Shown: piece by piece, positions 3,858-40,215 of the stretch
Layout: every line of letters starts with the position of its first letter
Numbering within the stretch: the first letter of the stretch is position 1
From: Gemmatimonadota bacterium
GTDB lineage: Bacteria; Gemmatimonadota; Gemmatimonadetes; Longimicrobiales; Gaopeijiaceae
DNA: 64,000 nt
Direction of reading: 5' to 3'
Assembly: GCA_022823365.1 (NCBI GenBank)
Contig: JAJDXG010000054.1
Coordinates: 1-64,000, forward strand
Notes under the pieces: generated by a model
The model's input: only the letters and a program-made list of their open reading frames with translations
What the model was told of the DNA's origin: nothing
The model's database searches: none
Translations under genes and position numbers: made by a program

Positions 3858-4130
3858 TCGCGGGGCACCTAAGACCCCGGAACCCCATAGAGCACCGCGC
3901 GCGGTCGGGAGCTGGCGCGTCCGCCATCCAGCATCGGTCCGCCTTCGAACGCGGTGGCTAACCCGCGGTTCCCGCAGCCTTGCCGTACGAAGGGTGGCGG
4001 CCTACACTGCGTCGCCGATCCTCCTCTGTCCCTGCGCTATATTATGATCCTGTATCAGCTTAGCAGCTCTCGGGTGCAACGCGTGCACAGGGTGTCCGCG
4101 AGCGTCGGGGTTCCCTTCAGGAAGCATGTC

Positions 4131-7100
4131 ATGATGAGCCGCGGTCGGATTCCCGTCCTTGCGTTCGCGGCGCTCTCGGTCCTGGCCTGGGCCGCCGGTT
4201 GCGGCGACGGTGCCACAGCGCCGCCGTCCCAGCCACCGCCACCTGATCCCCCTCGACCAACGACCGTGACGGTAAGTCCTGCCACGTCCACGTTGACCTC
4301 GTTGGGCGCGACGGTACAACTGGCAGCCAGGGTGCTCGATCAGAACGGCCAGGCGATGACGGGCACCACGGTGACATGGGCGTCGAGCGCCGCGGCAGTG
4401 GCGACGGTGGACGGTGCGGGCCTGGTGACGGCCGTGGGCAACGGTTCGGCGACGATCACGGCGAGCGCGGGTGGGACCTCGGGAACAGCGGCCTTGACGG
4501 TGATGCAGGCAGCCGGCTCGGTGGTCGTCTCGCCGGCGGAGGCGACTCTGGCCGCCCTTGGAGACACACTCAGGCTGGTGGCCGAAGCGCTCGATGCGAA
4601 CGGCAACGCGGTGGCTGACGCGCAATTCTCATGGGAGTCGGGCGACGCGGCGGTGGCGACGGTGGACAGCGCGGGCCTGGTGACGGCCGTGGGCAACGGC
4701 ACGGCAACGATCACGGCGTCGGCGGGGAGCGTATCGGGGGCAGCCGAAATCACCGTGGCGGTATCGCAGGCTTCGCCGGACCGGCCTGCTCTCGAAATAC
4801 TCTACGAGACAACTGCGGGACGCCAGTGGACGAACAACGCCAACTGGCTCACCAGCGCGCCGGTCGGCGAGTGGCACGGCGTGGAGGTCGATGCGGCAGG
4901 CCGTGTGATCGGCCTGGCGCTCTCCGACAACAATCTCGCGGGCTGGATCGCGCCCGAGATCGGGGACCTTGACCGGCTGCAGTATCTGCACCTCGACCAC
5001 AATGAACTGAACGGCCCGCTGCCGGCCGAAATCGCGGGCGCCACCGGCCTCACTTCGCTGCGGATCAGCGACAACACGCTTTCCGGCCCGCTGCCGCGGT
5101 CGCTTCTCGCCCTGTCGTTCACGGAGTTTCGCTACGCCGATACCGGGTTGTGCGTCCCGCCCTATGAGACGTTCCGAGACTGGCTCGGTGGCATTGCGTC
5201 CCACGCGGGCACCGGCGTGGAATGCACCCCGCTCACCGATCGCGAGATTCTGGTACGACTGTACGAAGCGACAGACGGGCCGAACTGGAAAAACAACACC
5301 AACTGGCTCACCGAAGCGCCCCTCCGCGAATGGTACGGTGTATCGGCCGATGCCGGTGGACGCGTACGGCGTCTGGACTTGAGTTTTAACGGACTGCACG
5401 GTGTCGTACCGCCGGAAATCGGTGGTTTGTCGAACCTCCAGTCCCTTAGTCTGGTGACTGCGGCCAGAGGACTGACCGGACCCATTCCGCCCGAGTTGGG
5501 CCAGCTGCGTCAGCTACAGCAGCTGATCCTCTCCGGCAACGGGTTTGTCGGACCCATTCCGCCGGAGATCGGAAATGCGTCGAGCCTGCGGTGGCTGGAT
5601 CTCGCCAACAATCATCTGACGGGCGCGATCCCGCGGGAACTCGGGCAACTCACGCGGTTGGAAGTGCTCTCCCTGGAGCTTAATTCCCTGAGCGGCGAGC
5701 TTCCGTCCGCACTGGCCGACCTGGCCCGTCTGGAGTCGCTCCAACTCCACCGCAACCTTCTGCTTGGCCCGATTCCCGCAAGTTATCTACGGCTCGAGTT
5801 GGCGTATTTCAACATTGACGAGAACCCGGGTCTCTGTACGCCGGGGACGGCTCGTTTCGTGGCGTGGCGTGGGCGCATGGCCGAGGTACAGGGACCGCAC
5901 TGCAACGCGGCCGATGCCGCCGTGCTTGGGCTGGTCTACGAAGCCGCGGCCGGTGCCGATTGGGCGAAATCCGACGGCTGGCTGGGCGGCCAGCCGCTCA
6001 GCGACTGGTACGGCATCGTCACCGACTCCATCGGTCGGGTACAGGAACTCGATCTGAACGGAAACGGATTGGCTGGCGCGCTCCCTTCAGAGCTCGGCGA
6101 GCTCGCCGCTCTGACCGCGCTTCGGGTCGGCGAGAACGGCCTTTCCGGTCCTCTGCCACGCTCGCTCACCCAACTTCGTCTCCGGGAATTCCACTATTCT
6201 GGCACTGAACTGTGCGTGCCTCCCGGCGGACCGCTCAAGGAGTGGCTGAGCACCGTTTCGTCTCACGAAGGCACGGGTCTGGAATGTCCGCCGTCCGATG
6301 ACCGCGCGGTTCTGGAAACGCTGTACCGATCCCTCGGCGGACCGAACTGGAAGCGCGCGGGCGGCTGGTTGACCGATTCGCCACTCGGCAGCTGGCGTGG
6401 CGTCCAGGTCGACGGCGAGGGGAGGGTCGTTGGTCTCTCGCTGAACAGCAACGATCTGTCCGGGCGCATCCCCTCGGAATTGGGCGATCTGTCCCGGCTG
6501 AGAAGGCTGCACCTGGAGGGCAACTCCATCGTCGGTCCGATTCCGGCTGCCATCGGCGATCTGTCCCAGCTTGAAGAACTCGACCTCGACTTCAATCCCC
6601 TCGCTGGCGAGATCCCGCCCGAAATCGGGAAGCTCTCCAACCTTAGAAGATTCAGCCTCGCGAGTACTCACACACTGGGGGGATCGATTCCGGCCGAACT
6701 GGGCAACCTCGCCAAGCTGGAGGAGCTGCAACTCAACAACAACCTTCTGACAGGGCGTATCCCGCGCGAGCTGGGCAACCTCTCGAACCTGAGGCGGCTG
6801 ATGCTGTACCAGAACGGGTTGACCGGCGAAATACCTTCCTCGCTTGGCGAGCTTTCGCAGGTGGAGAACCTGAACCTCCACGTCAACCGTCTCAGCGGCA
6901 CGATCCCGGCGACGCTCGGCAGCCTGGGCAACGTCACGAACCTGGATCTGCGGTGGAACACGCTGAGCGGCAGGATCCCGCGCGAACTCGGCCGTCTGGC
7001 CAACGTCGAGTTCCTGTCGTTTCGAGACAACCTGCTCACGGGCAAGATCCCCCGTGAGCTGGGCAACCTGTCTCGCGTCGAGACACTGGGTCTCGCCGAG

Positions 7101-8864
7101 AACGACCTCACCGGCGTCATTCCCGCGGAAATCGGCAATCTTTCTCGCCTGCGGATCCTCCTGCTTGCGCAGAACCAGCTGGCGGGATCGATACCGCCCG
7201 AACTGGGACGTCTAGCGGGCTTGCAGGAACTTGACCTGACGCTCAACCGCGACATGCGGGGAACCCTGCCGGCTGCTCTGACGGCGTTGCGTCAACTGAA
7301 AACGCTCCTGCTCTCGAACACCGGATTGTGCGCGCCTCGCGAGCCGGAATTCCTGGACTGGCTCGCCGGTCTGCCCAACCAGCAGGTGGCCCGGTGCGGC
7401 GCCGTGGAGGGATCGGTCGCATATGTGACGCAGGCCGTCCAATCGGTGGACTTGCCCGTACCGCTGGTGGCGGGCAACGACGGCTTGCTCCGGGTGTTCG
7501 TGAGATCCGACCAGAGCACGACCCAGAGTCTGCCGGACGTCCGTGCCCGCTTCTTTCTGGACGGTGCAGAGGTGCATGTCGTCGACATCCCCGCCCAGTC
7601 CGCCACGATCCCCACCGAGTTCGAGGAAGGGGATCTCGCCCGCTCGGCGAATGCGGTGATTCCGGGTGCGGTACTGCAGCCCGGATTGGAGATGGTGGTC
7701 GAGATCGACCCTGCAGGAACGCTGGATCCCGCTCTGGGGGTCACCGGACGCATTCCCGAAACCGGACGGACCGAGGTGGACGTGCGCGCGATGCCGCCAT
7801 TCGATCTCACGGTGATTCCTTTTCTGGCCGAATCGGATCCGGATTCCTCGGTCCTGGGGTTCACTCGAGACCTGAATGCCGAGTCGGATCTCTTCCGGGA
7901 TGTGCGGACGTTGCTGCCCATCCGTGGGTTTGCCGTGACGGCACACGAACCCGTGCTGACGGCGGCAGTCGATGTGTACAGCGTGCTCCGGGAGACGGAG
8001 GCCATCCGAATCATGGAGGGCCGCAGCGGCTACCACCTCGGGCTTGCACGCCGGACGGCGGCCAATCGCGGCGTGGCCAACCTGGGCGGGTATTCAAGCG
8101 CGAGCATACCCGTGCCCGATGTCATTGCACACGAACTGGGGCACAACCTGAGGCTCGTGCACGCGCCATGCGGAGGGGCGGCAGGCCCGGATGAGTCGTT
8201 CCCCCAGCGCGACGGCTCGATCGGCGCATGGGGATTCGACTTCCTGAACAACGTCCTTGTGCCACCCAGTGACCCGGACCTGATGACCTACTGCGAGCCA
8301 CGCTGGATCAGCGGCTACAACTTGACCAAGATGGTCAACTTCCGCCTCAACCGGGCGGGTGGCGCGGCCGCGTCCTCGGGGTCCCCTGCAAGGTCGCTGC
8401 TCCTTTGGGGTGGCGTTGACGGGGAGAACAATCTCTTCCTGGACCCGGCAATGGTTGTCGATGCGCCCGCGGTCCTGCCGAGTGCAGGTGGGGCCTACCG
8501 GCTGGTCGGCCTGGCGGCGGACGGGCGCGAGTTGTTCGCGTTGAACTTCGACATGCCGACCGTCGCCGACGGGGACGGACGGTCCTCGTTCGTGTACACG
8601 CTTCCCGTACAATCGGGGTGGTCCGACGCGCTGGCGAGAATCGCGCTGTCCGGACCGGAGGGATCCACGACGCTGGGACGCGACAGCGATCGCCAGGTCA
8701 CGATTCTGCTTGATTCCGGGACGGGACGCGTGCGCGGCATCCTGCGGGGCTCCGGCGGCGCTGTAATGTCGGAAGCGGCGGCGCCCGGGTCGGCGTGGGC
8801 GGCAGAGGGACTGAGGGTACTTCGCAGTCGCGGGATTCCGGAAGCCGCGGCCTGGAGGCGCTAG
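4131..8864 (+). CDS. Giant lipoprotein: two BIG2 domains, plant-type LRR cassettes, metzincin-like protease domain
   Basis: The product has 1577 residues. The start is ATG 4131 or 4134, preceded by AGGAAG; a lipobox follows (LSVLAWAAGC). Two BIG2 Ig-like domains (about residues 45-210) are near-duplicates of each other. Four leucine-rich cassettes follow (about 215-1090), each opened by an N-cap of the form LYxxxxGxxWxxxxxWL...W.GV, as in plant LRR proteins, and most closed by a Cys-containing cap (TGLCVPP...C). The repeats are of the LxxLxLxxNxLxGxIP type. The C-terminal part has HELGHNLRLVH (His1334-His1344), a zinc metalloprotease HExxHxxxxxH motif, with a possible Met-turn in DLMTYC. It is paralogous to the gene at 36658-40215. 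It probably sits on the cell surface and binds and/or cleaves a protein ligand; the target is unknown. Confidence 0.88.
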   Translation: MMSRGRIPVLAFAALSVLAWAAGCGDGATAPPSQPPPPDPPRPTTVTVSPATSTLTSLGATVQLAARVLDQNGQAMTGTTVTWASSAAAVATVDGAGLVTAVGNGSATITASAGGTSGTAALTVMQAAGSVVVSPAEATLAALGDTLRLVAEALDANGNAVADAQFSWESGDAAVATVDSAGLVTAVGNGTATITASAGSVSGAAEITVAVSQASPDRPALEILYETTAGRQWTNNANWLTSAPVGEWHGVEVDAAGRVIGLALSDNNLAGWIAPEIGDLDRLQYLHLDHNELNGPLPAEIAGATGLTSLRISDNTLSGPLPRSLLALSFTEFRYADTGLCVPPYETFRDWLGGIASHAGTGVECTPLTDREILVRLYEATDGPNWKNNTNWLTEAPLREWYGVSADAGGRVRRLDLSFNGLHGVVPPEIGGLSNLQSLSLVTAARGLTGPIPPELGQLRQLQQLILSGNGFVGPIPPEIGNASSLRWLDLANNHLTGAIPRELGQLTRLEVLSLELNSLSGELPSALADLARLESLQLHRNLLLGPIPASYLRLELAYFNIDENPGLCTPGTARFVAWRGRMAEVQGPHCNAADAAVLGLVYEAAAGADWAKSDGWLGGQPLSDWYGIVTDSIGRVQELDLNGNGLAGALPSELGELAALTALRVGENGLSGPLPRSLTQLRLREFHYSGTELCVPPGGPLKEWLSTVSSHEGTGLECPPSDDRAVLETLYRSLGGPNWKRAGGWLTDSPLGSWRGVQVDGEGRVVGLSLNSNDLSGRIPSELGDLSRLRRLHLEGNSIVGPIPAAIGDLSQLEELDLDFNPLAGEIPPEIGKLSNLRRFSLASTHTLGGSIPAELGNLAKLEELQLNNNLLTGRIPRELGNLSNLRRLMLYQNGLTGEIPSSLGELSQVENLNLHVNRLSGTIPATLGSLGNVTNLDLRWNTLSGRIPRELGRLANVEFLSFRDNLLTGKIPRELGNLSRVETLGLAENDLTGVIPAEIGNLSRLRILLLAQNQLAGSIPPELGRLAGLQELDLTLNRDMRGTLPAALTALRQLKTLLLSNTGLCAPREPEFLDWLAGLPNQQVARCGAVEGSVAYVTQAVQSVDLPVPLVAGNDGLLRVFVRSDQSTTQSLPDVRARFFLDGAEVHVVDIPAQSATIPTEFEEGDLARSANAVIPGAVLQPGLEMVVEIDPAGTLDPALGVTGRIPETGRTEVDVRAMPPFDLTVIPFLAESDPDSSVLGFTRDLNAESDLFRDVRTLLPIRGFAVTAHEPVLTAAVDVYSVLRETEAIRIMEGRSGYHLGLARRTAANRGVANLGGYSSASIPVPDVIAHELGHNLRLVHAPCGGAAGPDESFPQRDGSIGAWGFDFLNNVLVPPSDPDLMTYCEPRWISGYNLTKMVNFRLNRAGGAAASSGSPARSLLLWGGVDGENNLFLDPAMVVDAPAVLPSAGGAYRLVGLAADGRELFALNFDMPTVADGDGRSSFVYTLPVQSGWSDALARIALSGPEGSTTLGRDSDRQVTILLDSGTGRVRGILRGSGGAVMSEAAAPGSAWAAEGLRVLRSRGIPEAAAWRR

Positions 8865-8955
8865 TTTCGGTGCACGTCGCCCGGGACTTGCCTCAGTCGC
8901 GCGGTGCCCGCGCCGACCAACCTCGGTGACCCGCCGCCGCACTCGCCCGACCGGG

Positions 8956-10569
8956 ATGTCGGGCCGCTACGTGTACGATATCGACCCGGTCGACGGCGAC
9001 GAGGCGTGGGCGTTCTTCGAGGCTTGCCGGGACGGTGACCTGGATCGCGTTCGGGAACTGATCGGCCACGACCCCACCCTCGTCCACGCCCAGTACTGGT
9101 ACACCCAGCCGATTCACTTCGCGGTCTGCGCGAACCGGCCTGAGGTGGTGCGCGTGCTGCTGGACGCGGGTGCGGAACCGGGCCGCGTGCGCTTCATGGA
9201 CTCCGGGTGGAAGAAGCTGGTGCGGCGCGCCGGCGCCATGGGGTTCGACGAGGTGCGCAGCGTTCTGGAGGCCGAGGCACGCGCCCGCTTCGGGTACGAT
9301 CCCCGCTTCACCGAACTGCGGGACGCCGTGGTGGCGCGGGACGAGCGCCGGGTGGAGGAGATGCTGCTGGCGCGGCCGCGCCTGGCCGCCGCCGCCGACA
9401 TCCATGGCAGCAACGCCGTGCACTGGGCCGTCATGACCCGCCAGCCCGGGCTGCTGCCGCTTCTGGTCGACCGGGGCGCCGACCCGGATGCCTGCCGGAG
9501 CGACGGACAGACTCCCGCGCACATCCTGTACAACGGTGACTACCAATTCCGCGTGTGGCGGGAACTGAAGGGAATCTCGCATGCGGAGCCGGCGTTCGTG
9601 CTGGCGGCACTCTTGGCGGTCGGCGCGACCCTCGACCTCTCGGCGGCCGGCGCATCGGGCGACCGGGCCCGGGTCGAGGAGCTGCTGGAGGAGGACCCCG
9701 GTCGCGCCCGCCGCCTCGATTCGGGCCGCCGCAACCCGCTCACTTACGCGGCGCGCGCGGGCCACCTCGACATCGTGCGCCTGCTGCTCCGGCACGGCGC
9801 CGATCCGAGCCGCCCGGAGGAACTCGCGCCCGAGGGACACGCGCTCTGGATGGGGTGCGCGCGCGGCGATGTCGCCATGGTGGAAGCGCTCCTCGAGCAC
9901 GGTGCAGACCCCAATTCCGCGCCCGACTCGTCCGACAGCTGCCTGGGCATCGCGGTCGCCTGGGCGGGTGACGCGGCGCACACGATCGAGCGTCTGCTCC
10001 GCGACCACGGCGCGACCACCCCGGTCTGGTCCATGACCGCCGCCGAACTGGGCGAGGCCATCACCACCGGCGCACCCGTTACGCAGGCGCCTGACTTCGC
10101 CGAAGAGGTCATCGCCCGCAACGACCTCCCGCTGACCGACCTGCTGCTCGAGGCCGACCCGGCGGTCACGCGCCGTCTCGACGGCGGATCCCTCCGCAGG
10201 GGCGATCCGACCGTGAGCGTCACCTCGCGTCGCGTGCTGGAACGCCTCATCGAGGCCGGCTTCGATCCGAACCGCCCCGACTGGCAGGGCAGGAACGCGC
10301 TCCACCACTACGCCGGACGCGGCGACATCCCCAATGCACGCCTGATGCTCGAGCACGGAGCGGACATCGACGCTCTCGACGACCAGTACCACGGCACCCC
10401 CCTCGCCTGGGCAGCCCGCAAGGGCCATGAGGACATGGTGCGGTTTCTGTTATCCGAAGGAGCCGATCCCGCGCTGCCCCGCGATCTTCCCCCGGCTGTC
10501 CCGCGCGCCCGAGCCCGGGCTGCAGGTCATCAGCGAATCGTCGAGATTCTGGAGGGAGCATCTCGTTAG
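8956..10569 (+). CDS. Ankyrin-repeat protein
   Basis: The product is about 537 residues with ankyrin repeats through most of its length, for example NPLTYAARAGHLDIVRLLL, HALWMGCARGDVAMVEALL and TPLAWAARKGHEDMVRFLL, each followed by HGADP or EGADP. There is no signal peptide or membrane segment, so a cytoplasmic location is likely unless the protein is secreted by a dedicated system. Neither possible start has a clear ribosome site: ATG 8956 is chosen here, and GTG 8926 would add ten Arg-rich residues. The family mediates protein-protein contacts, and no catalytic domain is visible. It stands alone between the LRR lipoprotein and the convergent HNH gene, whose 3' end is only 28 bp away. Confidence 0.85.
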   Translation: MSGRYVYDIDPVDGDEAWAFFEACRDGDLDRVRELIGHDPTLVHAQYWYTQPIHFAVCANRPEVVRVLLDAGAEPGRVRFMDSGWKKLVRRAGAMGFDEVRSVLEAEARARFGYDPRFTELRDAVVARDERRVEEMLLARPRLAAAADIHGSNAVHWAVMTRQPGLLPLLVDRGADPDACRSDGQTPAHILYNGDYQFRVWRELKGISHAEPAFVLAALLAVGATLDLSAAGASGDRARVEELLEEDPGRARRLDSGRRNPLTYAARAGHLDIVRLLLRHGADPSRPEELAPEGHALWMGCARGDVAMVEALLEHGADPNSAPDSSDSCLGIAVAWAGDAAHTIERLLRDHGATTPVWSMTAAELGEAITTGAPVTQAPDFAEEVIARNDLPLTDLLLEADPAVTRRLDGGSLRRGDPTVSVTSRRVLERLIEAGFDPNRPDWQGRNALHHYAGRGDIPNARLMLEHGADIDALDDQYHGTPLAWAARKGHEDMVRFLLSEGADPALPRDLPPAVPRARARAAGHQRIVEILEGASR

Positions 10570-10597: not shown

Positions 10598-12274
10598 TTA
10601 TCCGAGGGACTCATCCGCGGCCTCCCGCGCAGCGGCCTCGATCTCCCATGGTATCTCCGAGTCGCGGTAGAGCGCGGCCCCGTTTGAGAGCACGAAACCA
10701 TCGCCTTTCGCCGGGGCGCCGGGATGCGCCGATGGGACCGGGGGGAGGTTTGCGGTCCGCGCTACCGGCGGCTTCGGCGCGTCGACCAGCATTCTCCCCT
10801 TCGGCGTGAAGAAGAGCACCGTCCCGTCGCTGTTCACGGAGACCTTGACCCGTCCCTCGTGAACGGCGCGGTGATGCCGCCGGCAGAGCAGCAGCGTGTT
10901 CCTCAGGCTCGTCTCGCCCCCGTCGGCCCAGTGCTTCACGTGATGCGCCTCGGTGAACCGGCAGCCGCACCCCGGAAAGCGGCATCCCCGGTCGCGCTCC
11001 TCCAGCGCCCGCCGGATGTGCGGCGGAATCGTGCGCGTTCGCCGGCCCACGCTCAGCACCGACCCGTCCCTGGCGTGAGCCATCGCGACCACCGCCGCGT
11101 CGCACGCCATGCGCCGCGACGTTTCCGAGGAGACGCGGATCCCGTCCAGATCCGAGCGTCCCGGCTCGCCCTCGGCCGCGAGCGTCGCGGCATCGCAGTG
11201 GACCATGACCTGGTAGCGCTCGGCGCGGGTGCCGGACTCGACGCGGGGTGACGCGGGCGTTTCGGTGTGGGCTTGGGCCTCCGGTTCCCCGCGGAATCGA
11301 GTCTGCGGTTCGTCCCGGGATGGAGGCACGACGTGGGACTCGCCACCTCCGAATCCCGCCGCCAGCGCCCGCTCCGCGAGCAGTCCCACCGCGTCCGCCC
11401 GGCGCTGCTTCGGCCTGGGACGCGCGTTGCCGTCATCGCCCTCGCGGCTGCCGGCACCCGCCCCTCCCTCGTCACTACCGGCGCCCGCCCTGTCTCCGCG
11501 GCTGCCGGCACCCCCGTCGCCCTCCCGCCGGAACAGCGCATCCGACGCCGCCTCCACCGCCCGCATCAGCACCGCCCCGACCTCGGGCTCGAGCCGCCCC
11601 TTCACCACGTACATCCCGTCGCCGTCCACGAACACCGAGAACGTCCGGCTGCGGTGGCGCGCCTGCTCTGCCGTCAATTCCTCATCGCGGGACAGTTTCT
11701 TCCACATGCGCAGCGTCCGCTCCAGCTTCGCCGCCGAACTGGCGCGCGCGAACTCGAGCAGCTCCGCCTCGCGCTCGGGCGTGGCCACCCGGGTCAGCGC
11801 CCGCACCTTGGTGTAGGAGATGGTGCCGTCCGCCAGGGCATCCGCCGTCTGCGGCAGGCTTTCCAGCGCCCGCGCCGCCCGGACCCGCTCGCGGGCCGGG
11901 CCGATCTTCATGCCGATCCGCCACGCCAGCCACTCGGCGCAGGAAGAGTAGCCGCCGTCCTTCCACCCGCCCCGGCGGTCAAAGTCGGCGATGAGGGTCA
12001 TCATCCGAGCCTCGGCGGCATTGATGCTGGCCGCGAGCTCCGCGATGCGCTCGCCGAGTCGATAGAGTTCGTCGTCGTCTTCGGCGGGCGCGGGACCGGC
12101 GGGCGCGGGACCGGCGGGCACGGGATCGGAAGGCTCGAAGCCGGAAGCCTCGGGATCGGAAGGCGCGGAACCGGCATCGGCGTCGGATCGGGAGCCGACC
12201 GGTTCCCGCAGCATCGCGGGCCACGGAGAATGCCTCCGGCGAGTGTCGTAGAGAACAGCTGGAGATGCGATCAT
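10598..12274 (-). CDS. DUF222 / HNH endonuclease (13E12-type)
   Basis: This 558-residue protein has the two-part structure of the 13E12 family. An N-terminal DUF222 region (about residues 70-260: ELYRLGERIAELAASINAAEARM and following) is joined through a low-complexity Gly/Asp/Arg-rich stretch to a C-terminal HNH nuclease domain (CRFPGCGCRFTEAHHVKHW...N...LCRRHHRAVHEG). The HNH histidines and the zinc-binding cysteines are present. The start ATG 12274 has GGGAG upstream. A Pro/Ala-rich linker near residues 45-65 is made of short repeated codons. DUF222-HNH proteins occur in many copies in some high-GC bacteria. Their role is not established, and mobility or DNA repair has been suggested. Confidence 0.88.
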   Translation of the reverse strand: MIASPAVLYDTRRRHSPWPAMLREPVGSRSDADAGSAPSDPEASGFEPSDPVPAGPAPAGPAPAEDDDELYRLGERIAELAASINAAEARMMTLIADFDRRGGWKDGGYSSCAEWLAWRIGMKIGPARERVRAARALESLPQTADALADGTISYTKVRALTRVATPEREAELLEFARASSAAKLERTLRMWKKLSRDEELTAEQARHRSRTFSVFVDGDGMYVVKGRLEPEVGAVLMRAVEAASDALFRREGDGGAGSRGDRAGAGSDEGGAGAGSREGDDGNARPRPKQRRADAVGLLAERALAAGFGGGESHVVPPSRDEPQTRFRGEPEAQAHTETPASPRVESGTRAERYQVMVHCDAATLAAEGEPGRSDLDGIRVSSETSRRMACDAAVVAMAHARDGSVLSVGRRTRTIPPHIRRALEERDRGCRFPGCGCRFTEAHHVKHWADGGETSLRNTLLLCRRHHRAVHEGRVKVSVNSDGTVLFFTPKGRMLVDAPKPPVARTANLPPVPSAHPGAPAKGDGFVLSNGAALYRDSEIPWEIEAAAREAADESLG

Positions 12275-13004: not shown

Positions 13005-15236
13005 TCAGCCCCGCCCGCTACTCTCCGAATGCAGCTGCAGCACCGGAGCGTGCTCCCGCTCGAGCGCGCTGCCCCGTCCCGACAGGCTGGGGTTGTTCAT
13101 GAAATAGTCGTGGGCGCTGAATGCCCGTTTCCCGTCCGGGACCCGGCGGTAGGAGCCGTCGGGCGCCAGGCGCCAGCTGCTCTCCGTGTCCTTCAGGTTC
13201 GCCACCATGATCTCGTCGAGGATCTGGCGGTGCACCGTGGGGTTGGTGACCGGAACCAGCAGCTCCACGCGCCGGTCCAGGTTGCGCGGCATCCAGTCCG
13301 CCGATGAGATGAATACCTTCGCCCGGTCCGAGGGCAGCTCCGCCCCGCCCCCCACGCACACGATGCGCGAGTGCTCCAGGAACCGGCCCACGATGCTGGT
13401 CACCGTGATGTTCTCCGAGAGTCCGGGGACCCCGGGGCGCAGGCAGCAGATGCCGCGCACCACGAGATTAATCTTCACGCCCGCGCGCGAGGCCCCGTAA
13501 AGGGCGTCGATGACCTCGCTGTCGAGCAGGGAGTTCATCTTGGCCCAGATTCCCGCGGGCTCTCCCCGGCGCGCGCGCGCGGCCTCGCCGGCGATGAGTT
13601 CGAGAAGCGTGCTGCGCATGGTGAAAGGCGCGATCGCGAGTTGGTCGAGGCCCTCGGGACGGGCATAGCCGGTCATGAAGTTGAAGGCCCTCGCGGCGTC
13701 GCGGGCCAGCGCCGGGTCGCACGTGAAGTAGGACAGGTCGGTGTAGATCTTGGCGGTCACGGGGTGGTAGTTCCCGGTCCCGAAGTGGACGTAGGAGCGC
13801 AGCGAGCCGTCTTCCCGCCGCACCACCAGCGAGATCTTGGCGTGTGTCTTCAGTTCCGCCACCCCGAAGACGACATGCACCCCGGCGCGCTCCATCCCCC
13901 GCGCGAACGCGATGTTGGCCGCCTCGTCGAAGCGGGCCTTCAGCTCGACCAGCGCGGTCACGTTCTTTCCCGCCTCTGCCGCCTCGATCAGCGCCGTCAC
14001 GATGGGCGAATCCTGGCTCGTCCGGTAGAGCGTCTGCTTGATGGCCACCACGGCTGGATCCTCGGCGGCCTGGCGCAGCAGTTGCACCACCACGTCGAAG
14101 CTCTCGTAGGGGTGGTGGACGAGGATGTCCTTCATGCGGATCGCGGCGAAGCAGTCTCCGCCGAAGTCGCGAATCCGCTCCGGGAAGCGCGCGTTGTAGG
14201 GCGAAAACACCAGGTCCGGCCGATCATCCCCGATGAGCTGCGCGGTATCGCCCAGCCCCAGCAGATCGCCCTCGCGGAAGATGTCCCCGGGGCCGACGTC
14301 CAGTTCGCGCATCAGGAAGCGCTGCAGGGTCTCCGACATGCCGCGCGAAACCCTCAGGTGGATGACCCGCCCCCTTCGCCGGCGCTTGAGCGCGGATTCG
14401 AATTCCAGCAGCAGATCCTCGGCTTCGTCCTCGATCTCCACGTCGCTGTCGCGGATCACGCGGAAATACCCGGTTTCCCTGACCGCAAAGCCCGGGAAGA
14501 GGCTGTCCAGGTGCATCCCGAGCAGCTCCTCCAGGCGAATGAAGCGCTGGTTCTCTCCTGGAATGGCGATGAAGCGGTCGATCTGGGAGGGCAGTGGAAG
14601 CAGGGCGTGCATCTCGGTGCCGTCCCGCGGGCGCGCCAGCGACAGCACCATCGCGTAGCCGGTGTTGGGGATGAAGGGGAAGGGATGCGCGGGGTCGACG
14701 GCCAGCGGGGTGAGGACCTGGAAGATCTGTTCGTCGAAGTAGGCATCCAGGGCCGACCGGGCGGCCCCGCTCAGCTCGCTCGGATGCGCGATGACGATGC
14801 CCACGCCGCGCAGTTCGTCACGCATTTCGCGCCATCTCTTCTGCTGGCGCACCATCAGCGCCCGGGCGCGTCGGTCGATGGCCCGGAGCTGTTGCGCGGG
14901 CGTCATGCCCTCGGGGGTCGTGGTCGTGATGCCGGCGTCCACCTGGGCCCTCAGCCCGGCCACGCGCACCATGTAGAACTCGTCGAGGTTCGTGGCGGAG
15001 ATGGAGAGGAAGCGCAGCCGCTCCAGCAGCGGATGGCGGGAGCTCGAGGACTCGGCCAGTACGCGCTCGTTGAACGCCAGCCACGAGAGCTCCCGGTTGA
15101 TGAAGCGCTCGGGGGCTTCGGACGTCGGGGTTTGGGCTGCTGCCGCCTGGGTCACGCGGATGGGCTCCGGCACCGGGGACACGAAACGCCGCCCGCCGGT
15201 CCCGGCCGGTGCGGCGCATGTCGAAGTCTGTACCAT
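13005..15236 (-). CDS. ppk: Polyphosphate kinase 1
   Basis: This enzyme makes inorganic polyphosphate from ATP. The 743-residue product matches the usual Ppk1 length. The N-terminal motif [17 protein letters not shown], the middle domain and the C-terminal PLD-like halves are all present. His465 in THAKISLV matches the autophosphorylated histidine, and [20 protein letters not shown] is conserved near the C-terminus. The first 38 residues are low-complexity; ATG 15236 has only a weak ribosome site, and a downstream GTG could be the true start. A TTGACG hexamer (minus strand, 15262-15257) lies close upstream. It follows the GH12 lipoprotein gene by 112 bp on the same strand. It is near the phoB-phoR locus but not adjacent to it. 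Confidence 0.95.
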
Positions 15237-36657: not shown

Positions 36658-39600
36658 CTACCTCTGCCGCTCGCGCACCTCGCGCACCAGCACGCTGCGG
36701 CTCACCGAGACCTCCGCGGCGGTGCCGAGCGCTTCCGGACGGACCCGGGACAAGTCCCGCACGATGCTCAGGATGCGCCCGGTTGAGCGGCTGGTCACGA
36801 TCGCGCCTTGTCCGCCGCTGTCGCGGTCCAGGGTGGTGAAGCCCTCGGGTCCGGCCAGCGTCACGCGCTCAAGCTCGTCCGCCCATCCCTCCTTGACCGG
36901 AACGGCGAAGAGGAATCCCGCGCCGCCATGGTCAACCTTCTCCGGGGTGAAGCTCATCGAGAACATGCGTCCTCCCGCCGCGTCGATCCCCTCCAGTCGG
37001 TATGGACCGGGCGACGTCGGAAGCTTCACCGGGGTATCCCACTCGAAGACGGGCTCCAGGCGCAGTTCCCCGTCCTGGATTCTGCCCCACAGCAGCAGCG
37101 TTCTTTCGACCGCCCTTCCACCCTGGGCGGCGGCCGGCGCCGGTGGAAGCCCCATCCTGTACTCGAGGGCCTTGGCGAAGCTGAAATCGCTGGTCCACGG
37201 CGGGTCGCAATAGGACATGAAGTCCCGGTAGCGGGCCGGACTGATCAGCCTGCCGAAGTCGCCACCCGTGCTGAAGTCGACGCCCCAGACGCCCGTATAG
37301 GCGTCGGGGTACGGGTAATCCGGATCGGGGCCCCCCGCGCCGCAGCCCGGAGCGTGCCGGAGGGTGAGGTTGTGGCCCAGTTCGTGGGCCAGCGTGCTGC
37401 CGAAGGGCCCGTCGCCGCGATAGACTCCTTCGACGTGTGACAGGGTCAGGGCGGCCCACCCGCCAATGTAGGCGATGCCCGCAAAGCCCCACGAGAAGGG
37501 ATAGCGCGAGGCTGGCCAGGCCAGGATGCCGTGATAGTATTCGTTGGTGCCCCCCGCTTCGATGAAACGTAGCAGGTGGATTTCGTCCCGAAGCCCGACC
37601 CCGCCCTCTTCCGTTGTATCGGCCTGGGTGACGTAGGGCTCGCGCTGCTTGACGTTCAAATCGGAGAGCGGCAACAGAGCCCGGGTCTCCTGCAGCGCCG
37701 CGTGGGAGTCGCTGGCGGCCATGTCCTTCACCAGGGCCGCGACCAATGCGTTGTCGCCTCTGCTCACCTCGGAAGAAAACGCGACCGGGACGAGCGTCAC
37801 GTCGAGCGGAGGCAGCGTGCGCACGTCCAGCGACTGCCGACCGGTCGCCGGAATGCGCATCTGGCTGCCCGTGAGCGTCGACAGAGTGCTGTCCGGGTCG
37901 ATCTCGACCACCATCTCCAGGCCGGGCTGCATGACGGAATCGGGGATCATGGCGTTGAAGGAGGCGCTCAGGCTGCTCTCGTCCACCCTTCTGGGAAGCC
38001 CGGAAGGCGGGGTCAGGTCGGCAACGTGGATCTCCTCATCGTCGAGATAGAAGGTGGCCCGCGCGGAAGGACGGTACGAGTTCAGGAAATCGGCGGTCGC
38101 GAAGACCCGCAGCAGCGCCTCGCGGTCCGCGACCAGGGGCACCTTGCCGGCGTAGGACTGCGTGGCCTGGACGAGATAGGCGGCCTGCGCTTCGACCTTC
38201 AGATCCGGGGGGTTGACCAGCACCAGCGGGTCGCCCGAGACGGGTGTCATGCCCTCGAAGCAGAGGAAGGAGCCGCACTCGTCGGGGGGCGCTTCCGGCA
38301 GGGAGTCGAACTGGATGTACTGCGAGACGCTGCCTTCCCGGCGGGTCACCGTAACCAGTCGGCTGAGGGTATCTCCCGCGGCGATCGAAACGACCGTCGA
38401 GCGCGGCTCGCCCCCGCGGGCGCCGAACACCAGGCGCATGTCGAACGGGGCGCCCTCTCTCACCGCGATACCGATCTCCGCGGGTCCTTCGGCCAGTGGG
38501 TCCTCGCTATCCGTTCTTACGGCCTCCAGCGTAAGCGGGAACGGATCGGTCAGATTGTCCTCCAGCCAGACCACCTCCAGTCCCGTCATGCCTGCGAACA
38601 GTCCGCGGGGCAGCTCGGTCAGCGAGTTCCCGTACGCCGAGAGGAACTCCAGGTCGGGCGTGCCGTCGAAAACCCCCTCGGGCAACGCGGTCAGCCCGTT
38701 TCCCTGCATCCAGAGCGTGTCCAGGCTGGCGAGGTCGTCGAACACGCCGTTAGGCACCTCGGCGACGCGGTTGCGGGAGAAGCTGAGGTAATCGAGCTCG
38801 GAGAGGCCCTCGAACACGCCCTCCGGGAGTCCCGTGAGCCGATTCAGGGTCATGCTCAACTTCTCGATGGCGGCGAGGTTGGCGAACGGGCTGTCGGGCA
38901 GCGCGGTCAGTCGGTTCCCCCCGATGAACAGCTGCCTGAGTTCGGTGAGGTTGTCGAAAACGTCATCGGGCAGGGTTCCCAGCCGGTTGCTGGTGAAAAA
39001 CAGCTCCGTAACGCTGGTGATGTTGTCGAAGACGCCTGCGTTCAACTCGGTCAGGCGGTTGCCGGAGAACGTCAGGAACTCCAGGCTGGTCAGATCGTCG
39101 AAAGCGCCTTCAGGCAACGAAGACAGCAGGTTCCCCGACAGGTCGAGCGCCTTCAGCTCGGAGAGGTTGTCGAAAACGCCGTCGGGCAGGGTCCCCAGCG
39201 CGTTGTCCTCGAGCCATAGGCTGTCCAGAGCCGTCAGGTCGGCGAAGATCCCCTCGGGCACGGTGGTCAGCCAGTTGTCGTCGAGATAGAGCTTCTTCAG
39301 GGCCGTGAATCCGGCGAAGCTGCTGTCGGGCAGTGCGGTCAGCGCGTTGCCCGAAAGATCGAGGTATTCCAGCCCGGTGAGTGCTGCGAAGACGCCTTCC
39401 GGGAGCGATGCCAGCAGGTTCTCCTCGAGATTCAGGGTGTCGAGGTTTGCGACATCGGCGAAGACGCTGTCGGGCAGCCCTCTCAGGAAGTTGTGGCTGA
39501 GATCCAGGAACACGAGGCCGCGCAGCCCCTCGAAATCACCGTCCTTGAGGGAGATGATGCGCTCGTCCTCGCCGTCGGCTCCCGCCATGTCCATGAACAC

Positions 39601-40215
39601 CGTGCCGGTCCCGCCGGGACCGGATGGCCGGGACTCGCATGAGGTCGGCGCGCCGCCGCGTTCGAATTCACCCGCCATCGCTTCCGCGCAATCGGGGGCC
39701 GACGCGGAGGTGGTGTCCTCGTGCGGACCGCTGACGTCAAGGCGCCTGAGACGCGCAAGCAGTCCGGCGCTCACCTGTGCGCAGTCTTCACGGTTGGTCG
39801 CGGCCATGAGCGCGTCCCGAACCTGTGGAGTCCGACCGCAGACACCGTCGGTCGACGAACTGTTCACCGACGCCTGCACCACGGCGCTCAGGTCTCCGGC
39901 CACGACGGTGATCGCAGCCGTCCCCGTCGAGACCGCCGTCGCGACGCCATCCTGACTCACCGAAACGACCGAGGCATCATCGCTTGTCCACGTGAACGGC
40001 GCGCGCACGGCATTGCCGTGCTGGTCCAGCACGGTAACGGTGAGTTCCGCCGTCTCACCGGGGACACCGAGCTCGACCTCGGCCGGGGAGATCGCGAGCG
40101 AAGCCGCGCGCGGCGGTTCCGGTTCAGTGACGTCCTGGACATCGCCGCACGCGATCAGCGCCGCCAGCGCCACGCCCGTGGCCAGTCGCTTCGGATGATG
40201 TGAAGAAAGGCTCAT
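36658..40215 (-). CDS. Lipoprotein: BIG2 domain, LxxLP-type LRRs, metzincin-like protease domain
   Basis: The product has 1185 residues from ATG 40215. The lipoprotein signal is VALAALIACG, followed by one BIG2 domain (about residues 35-115). About fifteen 24-residue leucine-rich repeats follow, of the LxxLPxGxFxxLxxLxxLxLxxN kind, unlike the IP-type repeats of the 4131-8864 gene. The C-terminal half (from AYLVQATQSYAGKVPLV) is clearly paralogous to that protein: both contain QPGLEMVVEIDP and end in a matching beta-rich domain. The zinc motif is HELGHNLTLRH (His944 to His954), with a possible Met-turn in FMSYCDPP. The protein probably sits on the cell surface. The ORF stays open to 40617, but that extension has no export signal. 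Confidence 0.88.
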   Translation of the reverse strand: MSLSSHHPKRLATGVALAALIACGDVQDVTEPEPPRAASLAISPAEVELGVPGETAELTVTVLDQHGNAVRAPFTWTSDDASVVSVSQDGVATAVSTGTAAITVVAGDLSAVVQASVNSSSTDGVCGRTPQVRDALMAATNREDCAQVSAGLLARLRRLDVSGPHEDTTSASAPDCAEAMAGEFERGGAPTSCESRPSGPGGTGTVFMDMAGADGEDERIISLKDGDFEGLRGLVFLDLSHNFLRGLPDSVFADVANLDTLNLEENLLASLPEGVFAALTGLEYLDLSGNALTALPDSSFAGFTALKKLYLDDNWLTTVPEGIFADLTALDSLWLEDNALGTLPDGVFDNLSELKALDLSGNLLSSLPEGAFDDLTSLEFLTFSGNRLTELNAGVFDNITSVTELFFTSNRLGTLPDDVFDNLTELRQLFIGGNRLTALPDSPFANLAAIEKLSMTLNRLTGLPEGVFEGLSELDYLSFSRNRVAEVPNGVFDDLASLDTLWMQGNGLTALPEGVFDGTPDLEFLSAYGNSLTELPRGLFAGMTGLEVVWLEDNLTDPFPLTLEAVRTDSEDPLAEGPAEIGIAVREGAPFDMRLVFGARGGEPRSTVVSIAAGDTLSRLVTVTRREGSVSQYIQFDSLPEAPPDECGSFLCFEGMTPVSGDPLVLVNPPDLKVEAQAAYLVQATQSYAGKVPLVADREALLRVFATADFLNSYRPSARATFYLDDEEIHVADLTPPSGLPRRVDESSLSASFNAMIPDSVMQPGLEMVVEIDPDSTLSTLTGSQMRIPATGRQSLDVRTLPPLDVTLVPVAFSSEVSRGDNALVAALVKDMAASDSHAALQETRALLPLSDLNVKQREPYVTQADTTEEGGVGLRDEIHLLRFIEAGGTNEYYHGILAWPASRYPFSWGFAGIAYIGGWAALTLSHVEGVYRGDGPFGSTLAHELGHNLTLRHAPGCGAGGPDPDYPYPDAYTGVWGVDFSTGGDFGRLISPARYRDFMSYCDPPWTSDFSFAKALEYRMGLPPAPAAAQGGRAVERTLLLWGRIQDGELRLEPVFEWDTPVKLPTSPGPYRLEGIDAAGGRMFSMSFTPEKVDHGGAGFLFAVPVKEGWADELERVTLAGPEGFTTLDRDSGGQGAIVTSRSTGRILSIVRDLSRVRPEALGTAAEVSVSRSVLVREVRERQR

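Follow-up and report, generated by a model that had tools for sequence, protein, structure and literature searches.

Exchange of leucine-rich-repeat cassettes in a family of predicted metzincin lipoproteins of Gemmatimonadota

Introduction

Do two large lipoprotein genes of a Gemmatimonadota bacterium belong to a modular surface system, in which the recognition region is exchanged while a protease-like region is kept? The question is raised by a 64,000-nucleotide stretch (hereafter, the window; positions 1 to 64,000 of contig JAJDXG010000054.1, assembly GCA_022823365.1), in which a first-pass annotation had described a pair of paralogs, here termed A and B, with the same domain order, a shared C-terminal half, and different classes of leucine-rich repeats (LRRs). 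We followed these genes across the window genome (G000) and its relatives by comparison of sequences, trees, and predicted structures.

Results

Two lipoproteins with LRRs and a protease half

Both genes encode predicted lipoproteins that join a lipid anchor, Ig-like domains, an LRR region, and a metzincin protease half on one polypeptide, as the lipoboxes, Pfam profiles, zinc motifs, and Met-turns bear out (Table 1). The open reading frame (ORF) of A spans 3954-8864, and its start was set at 4131 because this start yields a signal peptide and lipobox; by inspection of the sequences, most other complete copies in the window genome likewise carry a signal peptide and lipobox cysteine. The LRRs of A number about 20 (LRR_1, E 1e-49; LRR_8, E 1e-36), and the difference in LRR class between A and B is real. 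The C-terminal halves of the two proteins are homologous, with the Met-turn of B formed by DFMSYC (aa 998-1003). The shared domain order holds except that B carries about 120 additional residues in the interval between its LRRs and its protease, for which A has no counterpart. In a VIA-align search with the full-length B model, whose match list was filled by LRR structures so that fold matching of the protease half comes from A only, the solenoid of B matches Toll, Lgr4, and Leptospira LRR proteins (Z 24-29). The ectodomains of Toll and Lgr4 and the Leptospira proteins LIC11098 and LIC12759 share its LxxLP-type solenoid (Z 26-29) but lack the protease half, and belong to other organisms with other functions. 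A conserved in-frame TAG in the B orthologs was considered and dropped, TAG being merely the terminal stop in the inspected sequences.

Table 1. Features of genes A and B and of the genes flanking A, in window coordinates
Feature	Coordinates	Strand	Basis or remarks
A	4131-8864	+	1577-aa predicted lipoprotein
A signal peptide and lipobox LAWAAG-C, anchor Cys24	4131..4202	+	sequence; residue after Cys is Gly, not Asp
A two Big_2 (bacterial Ig-like) domains	4260..4763	+	Pfam PF02368, E 1.2e-19, two stretches
A GxIP (plant-like) LRRs in four N-/C-capped blocks, presumed recognition region	4764..7397	+	Pfam LRR_1/LRR_14; LCxP...C caps as block limits
A protease half: beta-sandwich, metzincin, C-terminal beta-sandwich	7416..8861	+	AlphaFold2 model, VIA-align
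A zinc-binding motif HELGHNLRLVH, aa 1334-1344	8130..8162	+	H239, E240, G242, H243, H249 invariant in C-half alignment
A Met-turn DLMTYC, aa 1383-1388	8277..8294	+	alignment: M290 >=90%, C293 invariant
Ankyrin-repeat protein	8926..10569	+	Pfam Ank_2, E 1.1e-41
DUF222 gene with C-terminal HNH-like motif, edge of variable A + ankyrin site	10598-12274	-	
B	36658-40215	-	1185-aa predicted lipoprotein
B signal peptide and lipobox LIAC, Cys23	40147..40215	-	sequence
B single Big_2 domain	39883..40101	-	Pfam, E 1.2e-8
B 14 LxxLP-type LRRs	38551..39603	-	Pfam LRR_8, E 8.8e-70; 24-residue strand period in model
B exchanged cassette, LRR 8 to 14, aa 399-555	38551..39021	-	nucleotide identity, dS, AU tests
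B linker/Ig-like extra stretch, ~120 residues, LRR-to-protease interval	38188..38550	-	sequence; low-confidence portion of B model
B protease half	36661..38184	-	38-41% identity to A C-half; 87-96% in nine other same-genus B orthologs
B zinc-binding motif HELGHNLTLRH, aa 944-954	37354..37386	-	sequence

LRR cassettes are exchanged within ortholog groups

All nine other genomes of the genus that were searched carry a B ortholog. Between G000 and G003 the protease half keeps pace with rpoB, showing 94% identity and a synonymous divergence (dS) of 0.18, as against 0.19 for rpoB. LRRs 8 to 14 depart sharply from this, with 60-72% nucleotide identity against mostly 80-98% in the flanks, and a dS of 0.70-1.14 against 0.15-0.51 (0.82 for G000 versus G003; 0.70-0.80, with flanks of 0.15-0.30, for G008/G009 versus G002/G004). 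Since dS is raised alongside the nonsynonymous divergence (dN), this points to replacement of the segment and not just to selection at the protein level. The tree of the cassette groups G003, G009, and G004 (support 100/100) and rejects G000+G003 (approximately unbiased [AU] test, p=1e-4), whereas the flanks reject the grouping of G003, G009, and G004 (p=7e-42), the tested groupings having been picked after the identity pattern was seen. The class-2 cassette recurs in separate assemblies, viz., G009, G004, and RHO2_bin_50, and B shows no insertions or deletions. In neither G000 nor G003 (metagenome-assembled genomes [MAGs] 93-98% complete) was a close second copy of the B LRR region found, the next best match being below 40% identity; hence, the donors were probably other strains or species.

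Comparable exchange is seen in further members. In an ortholog group with GxIP-type repeats (L057, L058, and L066), about 200 LRR codons drop to 46-63% identity between flanks that are both 93-100% identical, and the number of repeats differs. Tandem copies in RHO1_bin_56 (L059) have C-halves that are 92% identical joined to N-halves of two types, both of which are also found in other genomes, and the trees of the N- and C-halves exclude one another (p=5e-57 and 0.005-0.008). A control ortholog group with the same LRR type from the same genomes (C42) shows no cassette exchange. The C-half of its window-genome member (G000:C42; L025 and orthologs) is nearer to those of G009, G002, and G008 (dS 0.11-0.14) than to that of G003 (0.38), an affinity that conflicts with rpoB and the B flanks and points to transfer within the genus.

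The contrast between A and B has a different origin. In a tree of 155 C-halves, four changes suffice to account for all N-terminal classes, and the LxxLP form is a single clade (support 99) that includes a frameshifted copy in another genus. The A/B difference in LRR class is therefore one old event, and repeated swapping of LRR class is not supported. Exchange inside A was likewise rejected, as its LRR blocks and protease half share their nearest relatives. The proposal of a modular exchange of the recognition part is accordingly borne out by the B cassette, the L057/L058/L066 group, and the L059 tandem copies, but not by the pair of classes from which it had been drawn, nor by A, whose LRR blocks were inherited with its protease half. 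On the evidence of the sequences, exchange occurs as LRR cassettes within one class and as decoupling of N- and C-halves in tandem copies.

The concave LRR face changes faster

Positions on the concave face of the solenoid evolve faster than those on the convex face, with a ratio of concave to convex dN of 2.6 in A (95% interval 1.7-4.5) and 2.7 in the B cassette (1.9-4.3); concave positions are also higher in dS. These rates support the concave face as a candidate variable binding face, with positive selection not proven.

The C-terminal half is a predicted metzincin related to M66

The zinc motif HExxHxxxxxH is present in 167 of the 173 family members, and 161 of these 167 also show the Met-turn pattern, a conservation well beyond chance. 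Across an alignment of 51 C-halves, the residues marked for A in Table 1 are accompanied by the near-invariance of the Met-turn methionine. The canonical glycine of HExxHxxG is found in 45 of the 167 only, with position 8 being mostly serine or another residue. An AlphaFold2 model of the A C-half (pLDDT, the predicted local distance difference test score, 90.1; pTM, the predicted template modeling score, 0.90) comprises a beta-sandwich (residues ~1-127), a metzincin domain (~128-315), and a second beta-sandwich (~325-445). With VIA-align, residues 124-320 of this predicted structure match ADAM8 (4dd8; Z 14.3, root-mean-square deviation [rmsd] 3.2, 169 residues aligned) and, with Z 13-14, snake-venom and ADAMTS metzincins. 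StcE (3ujz; M66) matches over residues 1-438 (333 residues, Z 12.4), albeit with an rmsd of 7.7. A Foldseek search without VIA found nothing in the PDB that matched the model at E <= 0.001. Taken together, the zinc motif, Met-turn, and predicted fold all fit a metzincin of clan MA(M), to which we assign the modeled protease half.

By Pfam profile, M66 is the nearest of the metzincin families compared. PF10462 is the best Pfam family for all 51 C-halves, each of which matches it at E <= 0.1 (best 2e-9), with some members scoring above its cut-off and A lying near it; Reprolysin_3 matches 44 of the 51 (best 8.5e-6), and M43 and M10 two each, all more weakly than M66 (M6 was outside the listed profiles). 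M66/StcE proteins carry a metzincin-type zinc domain between beta-sandwich domains, to which the arrangement predicted for A may correspond. However, M66 is reported to lack the metzincin methionine (PMC7518263), which is nearly invariant here, and we accordingly call this half M66-related without filing it as M66. The present family of predicted proteases is further set apart by its LRR and Big N-termini and its many copies. It would also represent a metzincin family not described before, one whose targeting parts can be swapped.

A separate feature of the half is its tail, FSRGIPxxxAWRR (in A, window 8800-8861), which is nearly invariant, with S, R, G, and P kept in at least 90% of the 51 members; it is modeled as a strand and a short helix and perhaps has a role in folding or sorting.

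An expanded family

The 'pair' of paralogs did not survive the search of the genome and its relatives. The window genome alone has 15 matches at about 14 loci, of which about 10 have an intact catalytic motif, one lacks the zinc motif, one is frameshifted, one consists of the C-terminal sandwich alone, and one is a fragment at a contig edge. The sandwich-only ORF (G000:C8:332896-333405; L034) begins with a signal-peptide-like sequence of its own and lacks a protease domain. Other genomes of the genus hold 9-29 matches each (four in one that is 67% complete), and three other genera of the same taxonomic family hold 8-18. In a survey of the class that scored at most six candidates per genome, the protease family was present in 117 of 246 genomes, and six or more copies were confined to genera g1, g25, g9, g22, g48, and g53, with 0-4 in all others. 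The named close relatives, Candidatus Palauibacter among them, come from sponge MAG sets; their RHO, COS, IRC, and APA prefixes match sponge species of PMC8163846, and the jk18x MAGs are of Ircinia origin (PMC9531527).

Beyond the expanded genera, the protease half is mostly joined to Big, FN3, carboxypeptidase-regulatory-like, or other Ig-like N-termini and not to LRRs. A Big-like-only form of 600 aa also exists in the family. One member lies on a Latescibacteria record with the title 'chromosome 1', and an Acidobacteriota assembly of 5.7 Mb has five; in the tree these members are nested among Gemmatimonadota. The Latescibacteria copy has a weak dockerin-like N-terminal match and adjoins a gene for a 1485-aa WD40-repeat protein (L061 9924-14378). 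Apparent carriers from Terriglobia, Vicinamibacteria, and Aminicenantes are 3-4.5 kb contigs only and were excluded from the count of transfers. Carriers labeled 'Gammaproteobacteria' were also rejected: the genes of G263 and G267 coincide, coordinates included, with those of the same-genus genomes G009 and G002, making the record names misleading, and the names of the records so titled (L058, L060, L062, L065, L070, L075, L119, and L121) look wrong.

The locus of A and its mobility

Gene A has moved recently between genera: its copies in G001 (genus g1) and G086 (genus g25) are 93.5% identical in nucleotides (dS 0.12 over 1122 codons), as against 71.7% for rpoB (dS 0.98). PPK1 proved unsuitable as the cross-genus baseline, and rpoB was used instead; the S9 peptidase gene had no comparable match beyond the genus. 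In the window, A and the ankyrin gene sit between this S9 gene and the DUF222 gene, and the ankyrin gene is linked to A in both G000 and G001. In G008 and G009 the site is empty, with about 40 bp from S9 to DUF222 in place of the gene pair, and G003, G005, and G006 have a different gene set after S9. In G001, a tyrosine-recombinase-like gene directly precedes a truncated A (LRR part onward) at 1-1300 of L036 (G001:C45), and the N-terminal part of A beside S9 ends on a separate contig (L143), which would fit an insertion within A as well as a break in the assembly. The polyphosphate kinase gene further along (13005-15236, minus strand) is 93-95% identical within the genus, falls to 41-42% in comparisons with the related genera g25 and g22 (same family), and is closer, at 47%, to the Latescibacteria genome, a pattern for which replacement by transfer is possible.

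Discussion

We propose, with a probability of roughly 0.6, that A and B are surface endopeptidases directed by a diversifying LRR face at proteins of the sponge or of neighboring bacteria; catalysis, surface exposure, ligand, target, and a role in the symbiosis are what we infer. Under this proposal, they would be zinc endopeptidases held by a lipid anchor and would belong to a metzincin family with kinship to M66 (the StcE-like mucinases). Their Ig-like domains would serve as a stalk, while the concave face of the solenoid would bind a particular protein or glycoprotein and the C-terminal protease would cleave the bound ligand, or something nearby, at the bacterial surface. The targets would probably be glycoproteins of the sponge matrix, mucus, or defense, or else proteins made by symbionts that compete with the carrier. 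Duplication, together with horizontal transfer from one sponge symbiont to another, would have enlarged the family, and its specificity would be renewed through recombination that swaps LRR cassettes, leaving the anchor and protease half conserved.

Several observations weigh against this proposal. The lipoproteins may face the periplasm. The zinc motif is lost in a few LRR-bearing copies (G000:C40 of the window genome and copies in G034 and G235), and A scores 18.5 at full length, below the PF10462 cut-off of 20.6, which its C-half reaches (20.6). Concave dN/dS stays below 1, its values being 0.57 for A, 0.24 for B pairs without a swap, and 0.94 for the swapped cassette of B; the control group has a concave/convex ratio of 1.4 (0.8-2.1), which is not different from 1.

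The proteins might instead be nutritional, with the LRR and Ig-like parts merely tethering a surface protease to particulate or mucous protein for the scavenging of amino acids, and with LRR variation tracking the variety of food without an arms race of recognition. The M66-like mucinase relatives, the S9 peptidase, amidohydrolase, and TonB receptor genes nearby, and the non-LRR copies outside the expanded genera would all suit such a role; we nevertheless regard it as unlikely, given that the copies cluster in a small number of genera whose named members derive from sponges and that genes otherwise conserved have had entire LRR cassettes replaced, which goes beyond the need of a general tether. 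Lower still do we place antagonism toward, or self-protection against, bacteria or phages, in which the LRRs would recognize their surface proteins, the protease would destroy them, and the ankyrin neighbor would belong to the same system. Presence/absence variation and transfer are typical of accessory genes, and the linkage of the ankyrin gene to A is in keeping with this; however, merely three short weak matches were recovered among 2.9 million viral contigs, arguing against phage carriage, and no conserved immunity or toxin partner was noticed beside the copies. The cassette exchange might, finally, be an artefact, either because repeats of strains living together were joined into chimeras during assembly or because the LRRs drift faster; the genomes concerned are all MAGs or possibly so, and LRR repeats misassemble readily. 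We hold this to be very improbable, for drift or protein-only selection is insufficient to raise dS and dN together, and the recurrence of one cassette in separate assemblies, the lack of indels in B, and the unaffected control group speak against an artefact as well.

Returning to the proposal of LRR-directed surface endopeptidases, we advance a wider version of it tentatively, at less than even odds: each sponge-symbiont genome may deploy a receptor-like repertoire of surface proteases, from ten to about thirty metzincin lipoproteins guided by their LRRs. Recombination would carry the ligand-binding cassettes from species to species, and symbiont communities would in this way keep redirecting proteolysis toward proteins of the host or of neighbors, in parallel to the LRR immune receptors of animals and plants. 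In plant nucleotide-binding LRR receptors (NLRs) and lamprey variable lymphocyte receptors (VLRs), recombination and diversifying change keep renewing the LRR recognition surface, and the effector part stays conserved. The present family would resemble them by analogy in its working and is not a member of either, being a predicted secreted protease of bacteria; nor were VLR-like stored donor cassettes found for the B LRR in G000 and G003.

Sponge symbionts are known to be rich in LRR proteins and to acquire them by lateral transfer (PMC8163846), and the available part of an account of their LRR 'eukaryotic-like proteins' gives these as repeat counts and describes no metzincin-lipoprotein fusion or cassette exchange there (PMC9531527). 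In the open-access literature searched, which omits most subscription papers, we found neither a family of LRR-metzincin lipoproteins described nor an exchange of its cassettes. Little is settled about how sponge symbionts recognize their host and shape it, and such LRR proteins are usually just counted. This family offers a concrete, testable mechanism, with recognition and proteolysis predicted to reside on one lipoprotein, and its natural module swaps, in which the same protease is joined to different LRR cassettes, permit a direct mapping of ligand specificity.
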